A stretch of DNA of 64,000 bases, taken from NCBI GenBank assembly GCA_004323695.1, contig SCRU01000045.1, forward strand, positions 1 through 64,000. The letters are read 5' to 3'. Below are positions 9,962-24,788 of the stretch, piece by piece. The stretch is from Burkholderiaceae bacterium (lineage in GTDB: Bacteria > Pseudomonadota > Gammaproteobacteria > Burkholderiales > Burkholderiaceae_C). Within the stretch, counting starts at the first letter, position 1. Each line of letters starts with the position of its first letter. The notes under the pieces are model-generated. The model searched no databases. It was given only the letters and a program-made list of their open reading frames with translations, and was not told the origin of the DNA. The translations under genes were made by a program, and so were the position numbers.

Positions 9962-10708
9962 ATGTCACGCATCGCCATCCTCAGCGCGCTGGCGCAGGAG
10001 CAGCACGGTCTGCTCGCGCTGCTCCTGCAGCCGCAAAAAGTCCAGCGCGCCGGGCGCGACTTCTGGCTGGGACATCTGCATGGCCACAGCGTGGTGCTGG
10101 CGCTGTCGCGCATCGGCAAGGTGGCGGCCGCGACCACGGCGACGGCGCTGATCGAACACCTGGCCGTGACGCGCATCCTGTTCACCGGCGTGGCAGGTGG
10201 ACTCGCGCCGGACGTGCAGGTGGGCGACGTGGTGGTGGCGAGCAGCTTCGTGCAGCACGACCTGGATGCTTCGCCGATTTTCCCGCGCTTCGAGCTGCCG
10301 CTATATGGGCGCGCGGTGCTGGCCTGTGACGAAATTTTGTCCGCGCTGCTTTTTCAGGCGGCCCGGGATCATCTGGCCGAGGCCAGCGCCGCGGCGCCGG
10401 CACGGCACCGCGTGCACCGGGGACTGATCGCCAGCGGCGACCGGTTTGTGTCCGCGCAGGCACAGTCCGTGACGCTGCGCCGCGCGTTGCAGCGCGCCGG
10501 CCACAAGGCGCTGGCGGTCGAGATGGAAGGTGCGGCGGTGGCCCAGGTCTGCCTGGACTATGGCGTGCCGTTTGCCGCGGTGCGTACCATTTCCGATCGT
10601 GCGGACGACCAGGCGCATCTGGACTTCGCAACATTCGTGCGCGAGGTGGCCAGCCAGTATGCCTGCGCCATTATCGGACGGGCACTTCGGTCGCTATCAA
10701 ACAAATAG
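9962..10708 (+). CDS. mtnN: 5'-methylthioadenosine/SAH nucleosidase
   Basis: A 248-residue nucleoside-phosphorylase-fold hydrolase that cleaves adenine from methylthioadenosine and S-adenosylhomocysteine. The family signature VEMEGAAVAQV and the purine-binding aspartate in RTISDRADD are present near the C-terminus. The last residues (SLSNK) and the TAG stop are encoded by a dispersed AT-rich element whose left arm starts at 10693, so the natural C-terminus seems to have been replaced. It converges with the patatin gene. Confidence 0.9.
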   Translation: MSRIAILSALAQEQHGLLALLLQPQKVQRAGRDFWLGHLHGHSVVLALSRIGKVAAATTATALIEHLAVTRILFTGVAGGLAPDVQVGDVVVASSFVQHDLDASPIFPRFELPLYGRAVLACDEILSALLFQAARDHLAEASAAAPARHRVHRGLIASGDRFVSAQAQSVTLRRALQRAGHKALAVEMEGAAVAQVCLDYGVPFAAVRTISDRADDQAHLDFATFVREVASQYACAIIGRALRSLSNK

Positions 10709-13287: not shown

Positions 13288-14238
13288 ATGAAGCCCACCG
13301 TCGTCAGTGCCGACGTCCTGTTCGATGTATTCCGCAGCGCGCTCAAATGGGAGTGGGTGGCGGGCCTGGGGGCGTCCGAGCGCCGTTTCGCCGATGTCGC
13401 GATTGCGGCCGCGCGTTCGGGCGCCGACCTGGTGGGCTATCTCAATTACATTCACCCCTACCGCCTGCAACTGCTGGGGCAGCGCGAGGTGGCCTATCTG
13501 CTCAAAGGCACGCCCGAAGACTGCGCACGCCGCATCGCGCGCATCGTGACGCTGGAGCCTCCGGTGCTGGTGCTGGCCGACGGCCAGACGGCGCCGGATG
13601 CCCTGCTGTCGATGTGCGAGCGGGCCCAGATCCCGATGTTCGCCACGCCCGAGCCGTCGGCTTTCGTGATCGACGTGCTGCGCGCCTACCTGTCGCGGCA
13701 CTTCGCGGACCGCACCTCGATGCATGGCGTGTTCATGGACATCCTGGGCCTGGGCGTGTTGATCACCGGCGAATCGGGCCTGGGCAAGAGCGAGCTGGGC
13801 CTGGAGTTGATCTCGCGCGGCAATGGCCTGGTGGCGGACGATGCGGTCGAGCTCGACCGCATCAACCAGACCACGATCGAAGGACGCTGCCCGGAATTGC
13901 TGCAAAACCTGCTCGAGGTGCGCGGCATCGGCCTGCTCGACATTCGCGCCATCTTTGGCGAGACCGCCGTGCGGCGCAAGATGCGGCTCAAGCTGATCGT
14001 GCACCTGGTGCGCAGCGAAACCCTGGAGCGCGACTACGAGCGCATGCCGTACGAGCCGCTCACGCAGGACGTGCTCGGCGTGCCGGTGCGCAAGGTGGTG
14101 ATCCAGGTGGTGGCGGGGCGCAACATCGCCGTGCTGGTCGAGGCCGCGGTGCGCAACACCATCCTGCAATTGCGCGGCATCGACACTTATCAGGAATTCG
14201 TGGTGCGGCACCGCCGCGCGATGGACCGCAAAAGCTGA
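13288..14238 (+). CDS. hprK: HPr kinase/phosphorylase
   Basis: A 316-residue bifunctional enzyme that phosphorylates and dephosphorylates HPr/NPr on serine. Walker A is GESGLGKSE near residue 158, and the family signature [11 protein letters not shown] follows near residue 211. The ATG at 13288 ([13 protein letters not shown]) is the usual N-terminus; the open frame before it is not conserved-looking. It ends 80 bases before the convergent fur stop, with a GC-rich repeat between. Confidence 0.96.
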
Positions 14239-14240
14239 CG

Positions 14241-14312
14241 CAGCGACGGGCCGCCCCGAGCAAGTCTGGCCCCTTGGGGGGCAGCGCAGTACGCGCAGCG
14301 ACAAGCGTGGGG
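14241..14312. repeat. GC-rich intergenic repeat, copy 1
   Basis: It begins ACGCAGCGACGGGCCGCCCC and contains a GCCCC-TT-GGGGGGC hairpin, ending AGCGTGGGGG. It separates convergent hprK and fur, where the hairpin could act in termination. A close copy at 23573-23641 is translated as the tail of the aminotransferase-hydrolase fusion. Confidence 0.7.
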
Positions 14313-14318
14313 GGCCAG

Positions 14319-20747: not shown

Positions 20748-21212
20748 ATGGCGCTCGACTCCACCGATCGAAAATTGCTGGCCGCGCTGCAGCGCGACGG
20801 CCGCGCCAGCATGCAGGCGCTGTCGCAACTGGTGAACCTGTCGGCCCGCGCCACCCTGAACCGCGTGCGCAGGCTGGAAGCCGACGGCCATATCGAAGGC
20901 TATCGCGCGGTGCTGGCGCGCGCCAGCGTGGGCGAGCAGATCGGCGTGTTCGCGGAAATCGCGCTGAAGGACCAGCGCCGGGCCATCGTGACCTGCTTCG
21001 AGCAGCGCATGAGGGCCACGCCCGAGGTGCTGGCCTGCTACGTGATCAGCGGGCGCTACGACTACCTGGTGCGTATCGCGTGCCGCGACCTGGCGCAGTA
21101 CCACGCGCTGATCAACGGCTGGTTCGACGACGTGACGCTGGGCATCGAGAAGATCGTCACCAACACCGAGCTGCAGACCATCAAGGAATTCACCGGTTTC
21201 CCGCTGCGTTAG
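20748..21212 (+). CDS. Lrp/AsnC-family transcriptional regulator
   Basis: A 154-residue feast/famine regulator. The N-terminal helix-turn-helix (LDSTDRKLLAALQRDGRAS, then LSARATLNRVRRLEADG) is followed by an amino-acid-sensing RAM domain with CYVISGRYDYLVRIAC. Placed directly before the arginine/ornithine fusion gene on the same strand, it is likely the local regulator of that gene, with arginine or ornithine as effector. This is inference from context. Confidence 0.93.
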   Translation: MALDSTDRKLLAALQRDGRASMQALSQLVNLSARATLNRVRRLEADGHIEGYRAVLARASVGEQIGVFAEIALKDQRRAIVTCFEQRMRATPEVLACYVISGRYDYLVRIACRDLAQYHALINGWFDDVTLGIEKIVTNTELQTIKEFTGFPLR

Positions 21213-21313
21213 CGGGCTTACGCCGGTCGTCGCAGCGGCCTCACCATCTATTCCGGATCGGAAGTTTCAGCGCCGATGGGCGACAGCCATGGCGTTGTCA
21301 GTGCCTGAAGTTC

Positions 21314-21328
21314 ACCACTGCCGAAGTG
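21314..21328. promoter_or_regulatory. Inverted repeat upstream of the aminotransferase-hydrolase gene
   Basis: CCACT-GCCGA-AGTGG stands just before a TACACT -10-like hexamer (21339-21344). It is a plausible site for the adjacent Lrp-type regulator; this is read by eye only. Confidence 0.3.
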
Positions 21329-21366
21329 GCAGGCGGCCTACACTGATCTTCATCAAGGAGATCATC

Positions 21367-23679
21367 ATGGCTATCGAAAAAAGAGCAAATTCGCAAGACT
21401 TCATGGTGGCGGAGGCGCTGGTTTGTGCCAACACCTACCATCCGGTGCCGGTCGTGGTGGCGCGCGCGCGCGATTGCCTGATATGGGACGTGGAGGGCCG
21501 CGAATACCTCGACATGATGAGCGCGTATTCCGCCGTCAGCCACGGCCATCTGCATCCACGGCTGGTTGCCGCGGCGGCGCGCCAGCTCACGCAGGTGGCC
21601 GTCACCTCGCGGGCCTTCTATGGCAACGTGCTGGGGCCGTTCCTGGAAAAGCTGTGCACGGTGGCCGGCTTCGAGCAGGCCCTGCCGATGAATTCCGGGG
21701 CGGAGGCGGTGGAGACCGCGATCAAGGCGGCACGCCGCTGGGGCCATCGTGTCAAGGGGATAGCCGATGGCAGGGCCGAAATCCTGGTCGCGCGCAACAA
21801 CTTCCACGGCCGCACCACGACCGTGATCAGTGCGTCCAGCGAGCCGGATTACAAGGCAGGCTTCGGGCCGCTCACGCCCGGCTTCAAATTCTTCGATTTC
21901 GGCGACATGGCCAGCGTGCGCGCGGCGGCATCGAAGCACACCTGCGCCGTGCTGGTCGAGCCGATCCAGGGCGAGGCCGGCATCGTGCTGCCGCCGCCCG
22001 GTTTCTTCAGAGCGCTGCGCGACTGGTGCACCGAGCGGAACATCCTGCTCGTGCTCGACGAGGTGCAGTCGGGCCTGGGGCGCACCGGGCGCTGGTTTGC
22101 GTTTGAGCACGAGGGCATCCGTCCCGACGCGCTGATCCTGGGCAAGGCGCTGGGGGGCGGTCTGCTGCCGGTCAGCGCCGTGCTGGCCGACCACACGGTG
22201 ATGGATGTCTTCACGCCCGGCAGCCACGGCTCCACCTTCGGCGGCAACGCATTGGCCGCCGCGGTGGGACTCGAGGCCCTGCAGGTCATCGAGGACGAGA
22301 ACCTGGTCGCGCGCAGCGCGGCGCTGGGGCGGCATTTGCTCGAGCGGCTGCGCGCGGTGCAGGCTGCTGCCGGGCCGATGATTGCGCAAGTGCGCGGCCG
22401 CGGCTTGTGGGTCGGGGTCGAGATGAACCCGGCGCTGGCCAGCGCGCGCGAAGTGGTCGAGCGCATGGCGGCGCGCGGCGTGCTGTCCAAGGAGACGCAC
22501 GAAACGGTGATCCGCTTCGCCCCACCGCTCACCATCACGCGCGCGCAGATCGACGGGGCCGTCGATGTGTTCGCGCAGATTGTCCTTGAAATGCGCCAAA
22601 AGCTCGCTATACATGCGGTAGCCAATGCGCCATCGCCACGTCCCCTGCAGGAGGCCAACGCCATGACCGATTTGCCGCCCGTGTTCGCACCTGAACCCGC
22701 CGCGGCGCCGGCGCCGCATTTGCTGATGAGCCCGCCCGACTTCTTCGAGGTGAGCTACGCGATCAATCCCTGGATGGATCCCGGCCGCTGGTCGCTTGAT
22801 GCGCAGCGGCTGTCGCATGACGCGCACACCGGTTGGGTCGCGCTGAAAAGCCGCTACGAGGCGCTGGGCGCCAAGGTGGTGGTCAAGCCGGCCGCGCAGG
22901 GGCTGCCGGATCTGGTGTTCACGGCGAACTGTGCCGTGGTGCTGGACGGCAAGGTGGTGCTGGCGCGCTATCTCAACGACGAGCGCCGCGGCGAAGAGGC
23001 GCACGGCCTGCGCCTGTTCGAGCAGTTGCTCGCGCGCGGCGAGGTCGATTCGCTGCACCGCACGCCCGAAGGCGTCTTTTTCGAGGGCGCGGGCGACGCC
23101 ATCTTCGACGCCGGTCGCGGCGTCATGTGGATGGGCCACGGCCAACGCTCCAGCGTGCAGGCGCGCCACACCATCGAGCAGGTGTTCGGCATTCCGGCGC
23201 TGGCGCTGGAGCTGGTGGACCCGCGCTTTTACCACCTCGACACCTGTTTTTGCCTGCTCTCGGGCGGCGAGGTGCTGTACTTCCCCGAAGCCTTCAGCGC
23301 GGCCGGGCGCGACCAGATCCGGGCCGTCGCGGGCGACCAACTGATCGAGGCCGGCGCCGACGATGCGCTGCACCTGGGTGTGAATTCGGTCTGCATCGGC
23401 CGCGATGTAGTGATGTGCCATTGCAGCGCGTCGTTGCGCGAACTGCTCGTGGCGCGCGGCTACCGCGTCCATGTGATCCCGCTGGGTTCGTTCAACCGCT
23501 CGGGCGGGGCGGCCTATTGCCTGACCTTGAAGCTCAACAATCTGTACCAAGGGCGCAGCGCGCAACGCAGCGACGGGCCGCCCCGAGCAAGTTCGGCCCC
23601 CTCGGGGGGCAGCAAAGGACGCGAAGCGGCCAGCGTGGGGGCGAACGAGCTGCTGCAGCGCTGGCCCAAGGCCGCGTAA
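21367..23679 (+). CDS. rocD: Ornithine aminotransferase fused to arginine-dihydrolase-like domain
   Basis: A single 770-residue ORF. Residues 1-412 are a class III PLP aminotransferase of ornithine-aminotransferase type: PLP-contacting D231 (LDEVQSG), PLP lysine K260 (LILGKALGGG). Residues 451-727 match the DDAH/arginine-dihydrolase fold: N467 (INPWM), N521 (FTANCA), FEGAGDA at 572, H623 (FYHLDTC) and catalytic cysteine C718 (GGAAYCLTL). This set resembles the N-terminal half of cyanobacterial ArgZ/AgrE, which turns arginine into ornithine, CO2 and ammonia. The product would feed the aminotransferase to give glutamate semialdehyde. AAGGAG precedes the ATG. An internal AGGAGG before ATG 22663 could also make the hydrolase alone. 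A repeat lies at the junction and another forms the last 40 residues. CtlX-type citrulline hydrolase is the main alternative. Confidence 0.85.
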   Translation: MAIEKRANSQDFMVAEALVCANTYHPVPVVVARARDCLIWDVEGREYLDMMSAYSAVSHGHLHPRLVAAAARQLTQVAVTSRAFYGNVLGPFLEKLCTVAGFEQALPMNSGAEAVETAIKAARRWGHRVKGIADGRAEILVARNNFHGRTTTVISASSEPDYKAGFGPLTPGFKFFDFGDMASVRAAASKHTCAVLVEPIQGEAGIVLPPPGFFRALRDWCTERNILLVLDEVQSGLGRTGRWFAFEHEGIRPDALILGKALGGGLLPVSAVLADHTVMDVFTPGSHGSTFGGNALAAAVGLEALQVIEDENLVARSAALGRHLLERLRAVQAAAGPMIAQVRGRGLWVGVEMNPALASAREVVERMAARGVLSKETHETVIRFAPPLTITRAQIDGAVDVFAQIVLEMRQKLAIHAVANAPSPRPLQEANAMTDLPPVFAPEPAAAPAPHLLMSPPDFFEVSYAINPWMDPGRWSLDAQRLSHDAHTGWVALKSRYEALGAKVVVKPAAQGLPDLVFTANCAVVLDGKVVLARYLNDERRGEEAHGLRLFEQLLARGEVDSLHRTPEGVFFEGAGDAIFDAGRGVMWMGHGQRSSVQARHTIEQVFGIPALALELVDPRFYHLDTCFCLLSGGEVLYFPEAFSAAGRDQIRAVAGDQLIEAGADDALHLGVNSVCIGRDVVMCHCSASLRELLVARGYRVHVIPLGSFNRSGGAAYCLTLKLNNLYQGRSAQRSDGPPRASSAPSGGSKGREAASVGANELLQRWPKAA
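22564..22622 (-). repeat. AT-rich dispersed element, copy 5 (at fusion junction)
   Basis: Minus strand: ATAGC, 18 bases, AAGGACA (plus-strand 22606-22610 and 22581-22587), with a GTAGC outer arm. It encodes the end of the aminotransferase domain and the start of the linker, read as L-x6-A-I like other antisense copies. Confidence 0.6.
23573..23641. repeat. GC-rich repeat, copy 2 (translated tail of fusion)
   Basis: It shares the GACGGGCCGCCCCGAGCAAGT core, the GCCCCC/GGGGGGC hairpin and the AGCGTGGGGG end with 14241-14312. Here it is in frame and encodes residues of roughly 735-758 of the fusion protein. Confidence 0.7.
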
Positions 23680-23690
23680 ACTCCGGGTTC

Positions 23691-24788
23691 ATGCAGCTTG
23701 CCCCGGCCCAACTGTCGCAACACCTGCAGCGTGGCCTCAAACCCCTGTACACGCTGCACGGCGACGAGCCGCTGCTGATCCAGGAGGCGGGCGACACGAT
23801 CCGCGCCGCCGCGCGGGCACAGGGCTATACCGAGCGCACGGTGCACACGGTGGCCGGCGCCAATTTCGACTGGAGCGAGGTACTGGCCGCGGGCGGCTCG
23901 CTCAGTCTGTTCGCGGATCGGCAGATCGTCGAAGTTCGCATCCCTTCGGGCAAGCCAGGCAAGGAGGGCAGTGCGGCGCTGCAGCAACTCGCCAGCCACG
24001 CGCAAGGCGCCGAATCTGTCCTCACGCTGGTGCTGCTGCCCCGTCTCGACAAGGCGACCCGCTCCGGCGCCTGGTTCGCGGCGCTGGAGAGCTTTGGCGT
24101 CACGCTGCAGGTGGATGCGGTGGAGCGCGCTGCGCTGCCGGCCTGGATCGCGCAGCGCCTGCAGGCCCAGGGCCAGCGCGTGGCGACGGGCGAGGCTGGC
24201 CAGCGCGCGCTGCAGTTCTTTGCGGATCGGGTCGAGGGCAATCTGCTGGCCGCGCACCAGGAAATCCAGAAACTGGCGCTGCTGTACCCGCAGGGCGAGC
24301 TGACGTTCGAGCAGATCGAGCGCGCCGTGCTGAATGTCGCACGTTACGACGTGTTCAAGCTGTCCGAGGCGGTGCTCGGCGGCCAGACCGGGCGCGTGCT
24401 GCGCATGCTGGACGGCCTCCAGGCCGAGGGCGAGGCCGAGGTGCTGGTGCACTACACGCTGGCCGAGGACATTCGCGCGCTGTGCCGGGTGAAAGACGCG
24501 CTGCAGGCCGGCCGGCCCTTGCCCATGGCGCTGCGCGAGCAGCGCATCTGGGGCCTGCGCGAGCGCTTGTTCGAGCGCGCGCTGCCGCGCCTGCCCGGCA
24601 CAACGCTATCCAACCTGCTGTACGCGGCGCACCAGGTCGACGGCATCGTCAAGGGGCTGAAGCTCCCCGACTGGCCGCTTGATAACTGGCAGGCGCTGCA
24701 GCGGCTGGCGCTGGCCCTGTGCAGTGCATGCGCCGCGGTGCCCGCGAAAACGCCGGGCGCGCCGGCGCGTGCCAGAATGTTGGCATGA
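23691..24788 (+). CDS. holA: DNA polymerase III subunit delta
   Basis: A 365-residue clamp-loader subunit that opens the beta clamp. The start [13 protein letters not shown], followed by [15 protein letters not shown], is typical of HolA, as is the C-terminal part ending in the [11 protein letters not shown] region. It begins 11 bases after the fusion gene, so it may now depend on readthrough from that transcript. Its stop overlaps the proA start (ATGA). Confidence 0.93.

Follow-up and report, generated by a model that had tools for sequence, protein, structure and literature searches.

An ornithine aminotransferase joined in one reading frame to an arginine-dihydrolase-like domain in Burkholderiaceae

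We examined a 64,000-nucleotide stretch of DNA from a Burkholderiaceae bacterium (positions 1 to 64,000 of contig SCRU01000045.1, assembly GCA_004323695.1), referred to here as the window, and observed that positions 21367-23679 on the forward strand form a single open frame of 770 codons plus stop in the window's translated open reading frames (ORFs). Profile matches show that the 770-aa product of ~82 kDa joins an N-terminal ornithine aminotransferase (OAT) to a C-terminal hydrolase domain (HYD) of the arginine-dihydrolase-like kind, which is closest to the cyanobacterial proteins ArgZ and AgrE. The Shine-Dalgarno sequence AAGGAG (21355-21360, +) stands six bases ahead of the start codon, and a promoter scan of 21200-23720 returned no sigma-70-like sites. 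An earlier note, made from the sequence alone, had proposed such a fusion within one ORF; the open frame, the profile matches and 16 fused loci confirm it, and K260, N467, N521, H623 and C718 all lie at the positions given there. We conclude that this is a real, conserved and rare bifunctional enzyme, new in its architecture and known in its parts, which most likely leads from arginine to glutamate semialdehyde.

One reading frame for two enzyme domains

A sequencing or assembly error that deleted the stop between two ordinary genes is virtually impossible as an explanation of the frame. The same join is found in different assemblies at 16 distinct loci, including an isolate of Parvibium lacunae and the single-contig genomes G001 and G005, and the linker frames contain no stop. 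Nothing was found in favour of such an artefact, which is contradicted by these loci and was ruled out.

The OAT half covers residues 1-409 (21367-22593, +). It matches PF00202 over residues 21-406 (410.5 bits) and the ornithine aminotransferase model TIGR01885 (Orn_aminotrans) over residues 10-406, with 475.1 bits against a curated cut-off of 378.4; a second OAT model, NF003145, gives 500.9 bits, below its cut-off of 656. Alignment with human OAT places Y24, Y54, R149, E203, D231, Q234, K260 and R383 at Y55, Y85, R180, E235, D263, Q266, K292 and R413, which we take to be the positions of the pyridoxal phosphate (PLP) and ornithine site; K260, the PLP lysine, is encoded at 22144-22146. OAT structures are the best fold matches (Z 47-48), and an OAT can be expected to form a dimer or a larger assembly. 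The model cut-off, the site residues and the fold together support, by inference, an ornithine aminotransferase (EC 2.6.1.13) with a predicted delta-transamination of ornithine.

HYD spans residues ~449-728 (22711-23550, +), was delimited by profiles, alignment and fold, and carries N467, N521, E573, R594, H623, D625 and C718. It scores 214.7 bits with the arginine dihydrolase model NF052232 (curated cut-off 450) and 204.1 bits with the dimethylargininase model NF045659 (Mycobacterium tuberculosis type; cut-off 300). Because it is under both curated cut-offs, neither name is assigned by rule, and we call the domain arginine-dihydrolase-like without filing it as a member, since the NF052232 cut-off is not reached. 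Scores were also below cut-off for the other dimethylargininase model, NF045660 (38.2 bits; 340), and for the arginine deiminase (ADI) model TIGR01078 (18.4 bits; 489.1). The Pfam model DDAH_eukar (PF19420), which is broad and spans a superfamily branch, is matched with 45.9 above a gathering score of 23. The protein is not of the AgrE bifunctional type: NF052231 gives 216.4 of the 1025 bits of its threshold, the OAT is N-terminal, and there is no cyclodeaminase match. The gene thus presents an annotation hazard, as a 770-aa protein passes an OAT model and its second half stays below every NCBIfam cut-off of its own.

The nearest solved structures by sequence in the Protein Data Bank (PDB) are Sll1336/ArgZ and Alr4995/AgrE. 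N521 and C718 correspond to the positions altered in the ArgZ mutants 6juz (N71S, with a reaction intermediate bound) and 6jv1 (C264S); the roles of N71 and C264 in ArgZ are background knowledge or follow the PDB titles. In an alignment of 106 distinct HYD rows, chosen by length and a score above 100 bits, N521, E573, R594, H623 and D625 are invariant (106/106), N467 is asparagine in 105 rows and C718 cysteine in 104, the others being gaps. The HYD model (mean predicted local distance difference test score 86.3) superposes on ArgZ/AgrE with Z 40.5-41.4 and a root-mean-square deviation of 1.2-1.6 Å over 267-273 residues, compared to Z 29.4 for Pseudomonas aeruginosa dimethylargininase (DDAH), 28.3 for AstB and 26.2 for ADI; the hydrolase half of the full-length model matches 6jv1 with Z 42.6. 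Nearest structures, aligned residues and fold all bear out the earlier claim of an ArgZ/AgrE-type hydrolase with its key residues.

These comparisons bear on whether HYD might stop at citrulline, like an arginine deiminase, or take methylated arginines, like DDAH, with the fusion to OAT serving another purpose. We consider this unlikely. The enzymes belong to the same superfamily, the NF045659 score nearly equals that of NF052232, and DDAH_eukar is matched above its cut-off; however, NF045659 remains under its own cut-off, TIGR01078 reaches only 18.4 of 489, the fold distances clearly favour ArgZ/AgrE, and N521 corresponds to ArgZ N71. A citrulline-forming HYD would also supply nothing for the OAT to act on, which is at odds with the repeated pairing of the two, where HYD takes the place that arginase has in other lineages.

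In the full-length model both domains are confident and residues 425-443 and 730-770 are disordered; its predicted template modelling score (pTM) is 0.56, and no interface between OAT and HYD is predicted. Given this pTM and the predicted disorder of the linker, no channel is indicated, and the earlier note's suggestion that free ornithine is avoided gains no support.

Relatives of the fusion and of its two halves

The earlier note had suggested looking for the same domain pair in other genomes. This search yielded 16 distinct fused loci: 13 genomes of the window's family, the Parvibium lacunae isolate, a Burkholderiaceae metagenome-assembled genome (MAG) and an Azospirillaceae MAG. The Ramlibacter MAG locus L038 is identical in sequence to G077. 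Within the family, 24 of 399 genomes have any hydrolase match, and the 13 single-frame fusions span 6 genera. Other family matches comprise two pieces cut by contig ends in G138, a hydrolase with no OAT within 1.5 kb in G160, and nine weak matches (E at least 2.7e-8). In the window's own genus, G006 has the start of the OAT and the end of the hydrolase on two contig ends, and no hydrolase match was found in G004. A sample of the phylum contained the fusion in 2 of 398 genomes, both from the window's genus.

In the HYD tree, the 16 fused rows and the contig-cut L041 form one clade (100/96). The OAT tree groups the Azospirillaceae MAG row (L042) with L081 (98/85), but a single fused clade is still not rejected (approximately unbiased test, p-AU 0.252). 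The HYD tree favours a single origin of all fusions. Immediate neighbours of the fused clade are alphaproteobacterial hydrolases with an OAT gene behind them. Hydrolases of Oxalobacteraceae, which have a separate OAT gene ahead, and of Methylosinus lie elsewhere in the tree. We also considered that the fusion arose when such an Oxalobacteraceae pair lost the stop between its OAT and HYD; the position of the Oxalobacteraceae HYD in the tree does not support this. Pairing of HYD with OAT, as neighbours or in a fusion, recurs in several separate regions of the tree. Cyanobacterial and verrucomicrobial hydrolases are fused to cyclodeaminase, and these lie on the opposite side of the tree from the window's HYD, across a dividing branch that, like the deep branches of this tree in general, is weak (68/88). 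In the acidobacterial L047, which at first resembled a further N-terminal fusion, the hydrolase occupies the C-terminal end of a 719-codon frame (2-2158, +) that continues past the contig end; its first 438 residues match no OAT, arginase or cyclodeaminase, and it may be nothing more than an open frame.

We also determined the partners of OAT in a sample of the order, where 20 of 349 genomes contain a strong OAT (E at most 1e-100). Two of these are hydrolase-fused, both from the window's genus; nine are fused in frame to an N-terminal arginase and two lie beside an arginase gene. One more stands beside a hydrolase gene, and six have neither within 1.5 kb, four of these six having a hydrolase elsewhere in the genome. 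OAT and hydrolase occur unlinked in the same genome in G057, G548, G643 and G728 (family f23).

The nine arginase-OAT fusions are frames of 710-763 codons. They include L015 (1501-3702, −) and L016 (1450-3591, −), the two that were tested, and in both the single frame was confirmed to match Pfam Arginase and Aminotran_3; the others are L168, L171, L174, L176, L178, L179 and L182, and the genes of L015 and L016 also appear as L169 and L175. Their OAT belongs to the same subfamily and occupies another part of the OAT tree than that of the hydrolase fusions, and grouping all nine rows in one clade gives p-AU 0.073. Like the window protein, they would offer a single chain for the same two-step conversion, but their first enzyme is an N-terminal PF00491 arginase that releases urea and is not homologous to HYD. 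Since a non-homologous, ornithine-forming arginase occupies the same place, these proteins are the best indirect evidence that HYD makes ornithine. They appear to be a convergent answer, and it seems that tying the two steps together has been favoured more than once. No description of an OAT-dihydrolase or arginase-OAT fusion was found in the open-licence literature searched, a scope that excludes most subscription papers.

Several known systems resemble parts of this arrangement. The closest is AgrE (Alr4995, Anabaena), together with ArgZ (Sll1336, Synechocystis), whose hydrolase is homologous to HYD and has the same catalytic residues and fold. Like the window protein, AgrE fuses the hydrolase to an ornithine-consuming enzyme; its second enzyme is an ornithine cyclodeaminase, and PMC8262935 describes it as making proline from arginine. 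In AgrE the hydrolase is N-terminal and the cyclodeaminase C-terminal, whereas in the window protein the OAT comes first and the expected product is glutamate semialdehyde, so that the contrast drawn in the earlier note between the two second enzymes stands. According to PMC11659421, on the GME superfamily, the bifunctional enzymes with a cyclodeaminase belong with a larger set of proteins that have not been characterised.

Separate genes for the same functions are also known. In mycobacteria Rv2323c, a separate hydrolase of the DDAH/ArgZ kind that we liken to HYD by description, is annotated as a DDAH and lies beside rocD, the OAT gene, and a regulator; according to PMC4569260, it is arginine-induced and needed for growth on arginine. 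There are two genes here in place of the window's one, and rocD is broken in M. tuberculosis; the evidence on Rv2323c in that paper comes from growth and induction. Oxalobacteraceae (OAT then HYD) and Alphaproteobacteria (HYD then OAT) have the same two enzymes adjoining, mostly with an lrp gene. These pairs differ from the fusion in that each gene has its own frame, the lrp gene is divergent, and the Oxalobacteraceae HYD belongs to a different branch of the tree. Bacillus RocF and RocD follow the same course from arginine through ornithine to the semialdehyde, with separate arginase and OAT genes and urea as by-product.

A proposed route from arginine to glutamate

We regard it as quite probable that the protein is a bifunctional arginine-catabolic enzyme that takes arginine through ornithine to glutamate semialdehyde, a prediction that extends to its substrate, reaction and regulation alike. 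HYD would hydrolyse arginine with C718 as the cysteine nucleophile and, having N521 in place of ArgZ N71, would be expected not to stop at citrulline but to continue to ornithine, with release of CO2 and two ammonia. The OAT domain, with PLP on K260, would move the delta-amino group of ornithine to 2-oxoglutarate, yielding glutamate semialdehyde and glutamate, and PutA would oxidise the semialdehyde to glutamate. The window genome encodes a trifunctional PutA (NF008772, 2338 bits; cut-off 1750), and with the fusion and a full PutA in one genome the arginine-to-glutamate route would be complete. Proline dehydrogenase was found in all 12 fusion genomes surveyed.

Searches of the window genome (97.9% complete) for arginase (PF00491), ADI (TIGR01078) and AstB (PF04996) gave no match; these searches did not extend to arginine decarboxylase or other routes. 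The 12 fusion genomes have no AstB match and no ADI match except the fusion itself (one, weak). The consecutive steps proposed in the earlier note are thus supported by inference, from the pairing of HYD with OAT, the arginase-OAT fusions, the Lrp neighbour described below, PutA, and the finding of no other arginine-to-ornithine enzyme in the genome. The benefit of the fusion may lie in equal dosage of the two enzymes or in local ornithine.

Several observations weigh against this interpretation. Both curated models nearest to HYD remain under their cut-offs, and the pTM of the full-length model supports no particular placement of the two domains. The fusion is rare and patchy (13/399 family genomes, 2/398 phylum genomes), with G004 lacking it within the genus itself. 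Finally, five of the 12 fusion genomes have an arginase-family match (four strong, one partial), and in these the fusion has a competing candidate.

The upstream partner of the fusion is a gene for an Lrp/AsnC-family regulator (20748-21212, +; PF13404, PF13412, PF01037). A same-strand lrp gene precedes the fusion at all 14 other fused loci examined, namely 11 fetched family regions and L039, L040 and L042. The order leuS-lptE-lrp-fusion is present in 11/11 of the fetched regions, and in 10 of them holA and proA come next, in that order; G018 has its holA at another place. At L039, L040 and L042, lrp still accompanies the fusion, and leuS and holA are missing. We compared these with 23 holA loci of relatives without the fusion (L201, L203, L204 and L206-L225), where lptE is beside holA in 21 (undetected in L210 and L223) and proA follows holA at no more than 1.5 kb in 16, a figure that includes two marginal partial matches. 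Because the lptE-holA(-proA) order also exists without the fusion, lrp and the fusion are best described as a two-gene cassette inserted into a housekeeping cluster between lptE and holA. The earlier suggestion that proA provides functional context does not hold, as leuS-lptE-holA-proA is the ordinary order in fusion-free relatives; its presence there rules out proA as a functional neighbour and makes it a bystander.

The position of proA, two genes downstream in the window, would fit a protein that works mainly in reverse or for proline/glutamate balance, its OAT making ornithine from the semialdehyde of ProA and its HYD acting as a futile or nitrogen-releasing step on arginine. The OAT reaction is reversible. 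We nevertheless judge this very unlikely: proA is equally there in fusion-free relatives, ArgD-type genes for ornithine synthesis lie elsewhere in the genome (L002), and the Lrp neighbour and the arginase-OAT analogue point to catabolism.

The interval between lrp and the fusion contains a palindromic element (21249-21265, no strand assigned), a candidate Lrp operator with the core TTCCGNNTCGGAA at 21251-21263. Its sequence is ACTTCCGNNTCGGAAGT in most loci. Of the 14 fused loci in the window's family, 13 have the exact core and G018 carries a variant; the core was not found in L039, L040 or L042. One match elsewhere (L225) was detected in 1.8 Mb of fetched, partly redundant loci scanned on one strand; the window itself was scanned on both. 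The adjacent Lrp/AsnC protein probably controls the fusion gene, perhaps through this conserved palindrome in front of it.

More tentatively, lrp, the palindromic operator and the single-chain enzyme may constitute a transferable arginine module that hands ornithine to the OAT before it can escape, and the order may have built a single-chain conversion twice, with a dihydrolase and with an arginase. Free ornithine also feeds polyamine and arginine synthesis. In that case the benefit of tying ornithine formation to transamination would be directly testable. With AgrE and the arginase-OAT proteins, the fusion would make three known ways of coupling, in a single polypeptide, the formation of ornithine to the step that consumes it. 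Two non-homologous hydrolases at opposite ends of the same OAT subfamily offer a natural experiment on what joining achieves: equal dosage, less free ornithine, or control. The enzyme would also allow urea-free use of arginine in genomes that gave no match to arginase, ADI or AstB. What makes it interesting is the convergence with the arginase-OAT fusions and the self-contained nature of the cassette with lrp.

Linker, internal start and C-terminal tail

The linker (residues 410-448; 22594-22710, +), delimited by linker comparison and model, is predicted to be disordered at 425-443. Linkers of the 16 fused loci measure 22-49 aa and have 12 different lengths; together they contain no stop in the fused frame versus 17 and 5 in the two alternative forward frames. 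Comparison of the window gene with six other fusions showed dN well below dS in both domains (nonsynonymous to synonymous ratio, dN/dS, ~0.12-0.28), and protein change in the linker several times faster than in the domains in the more distant pairs.

Within the linker, AGGAGG (22649-22654) is followed after 8 nt by ATG (22663-22665, M433), a possible start for a free hydrolase (22649-22665, +), which the window species may make additionally. We hold it possible, if somewhat doubtful, that two products matter in this species, the full-length fusion and a free hydrolase from M433, or that mainly separate polypeptides are made. Comparable sites at L009, L010, L038 and L040, the last with a GTG start codon, are in keeping with this and bring the linkers with an internal start and a Shine-Dalgarno match of at least 5 bases to five of 16, counting the window's (L001). 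The other 11 homologues, however, have no such start and are still in frame and stop-free. Without a stop between the halves the fusion must form unless cleaved, and a free hydrolase would be an extra. Because such starts are present in only 5/16 linkers, the fusion itself is independent of them.

A DNA pattern in the linker region, CTTG..GCTAT..AGC (22585-22622), is common to several related, Comamonadaceae-type fusions and uses codons uncommon for a G+C-rich gene. It may be leftover intergenic sequence. Palindromes of the form GCTAT..ATAGC occur elsewhere in the window at 10693, 48052, 52072 and 55285.

The C-terminal tail, from ~residue 733, is predicted to be disordered and lies inside a dispersed repeat, of which one copy of ~78 bp (23565-23642, +), recognised by its other copies, is read as tail. 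Further copies are found in L006, in L008 and at 14238-14313 of the window. A tail about as long is present on the G005 gene, and the matches in G002 and G001 stop near residue 735.

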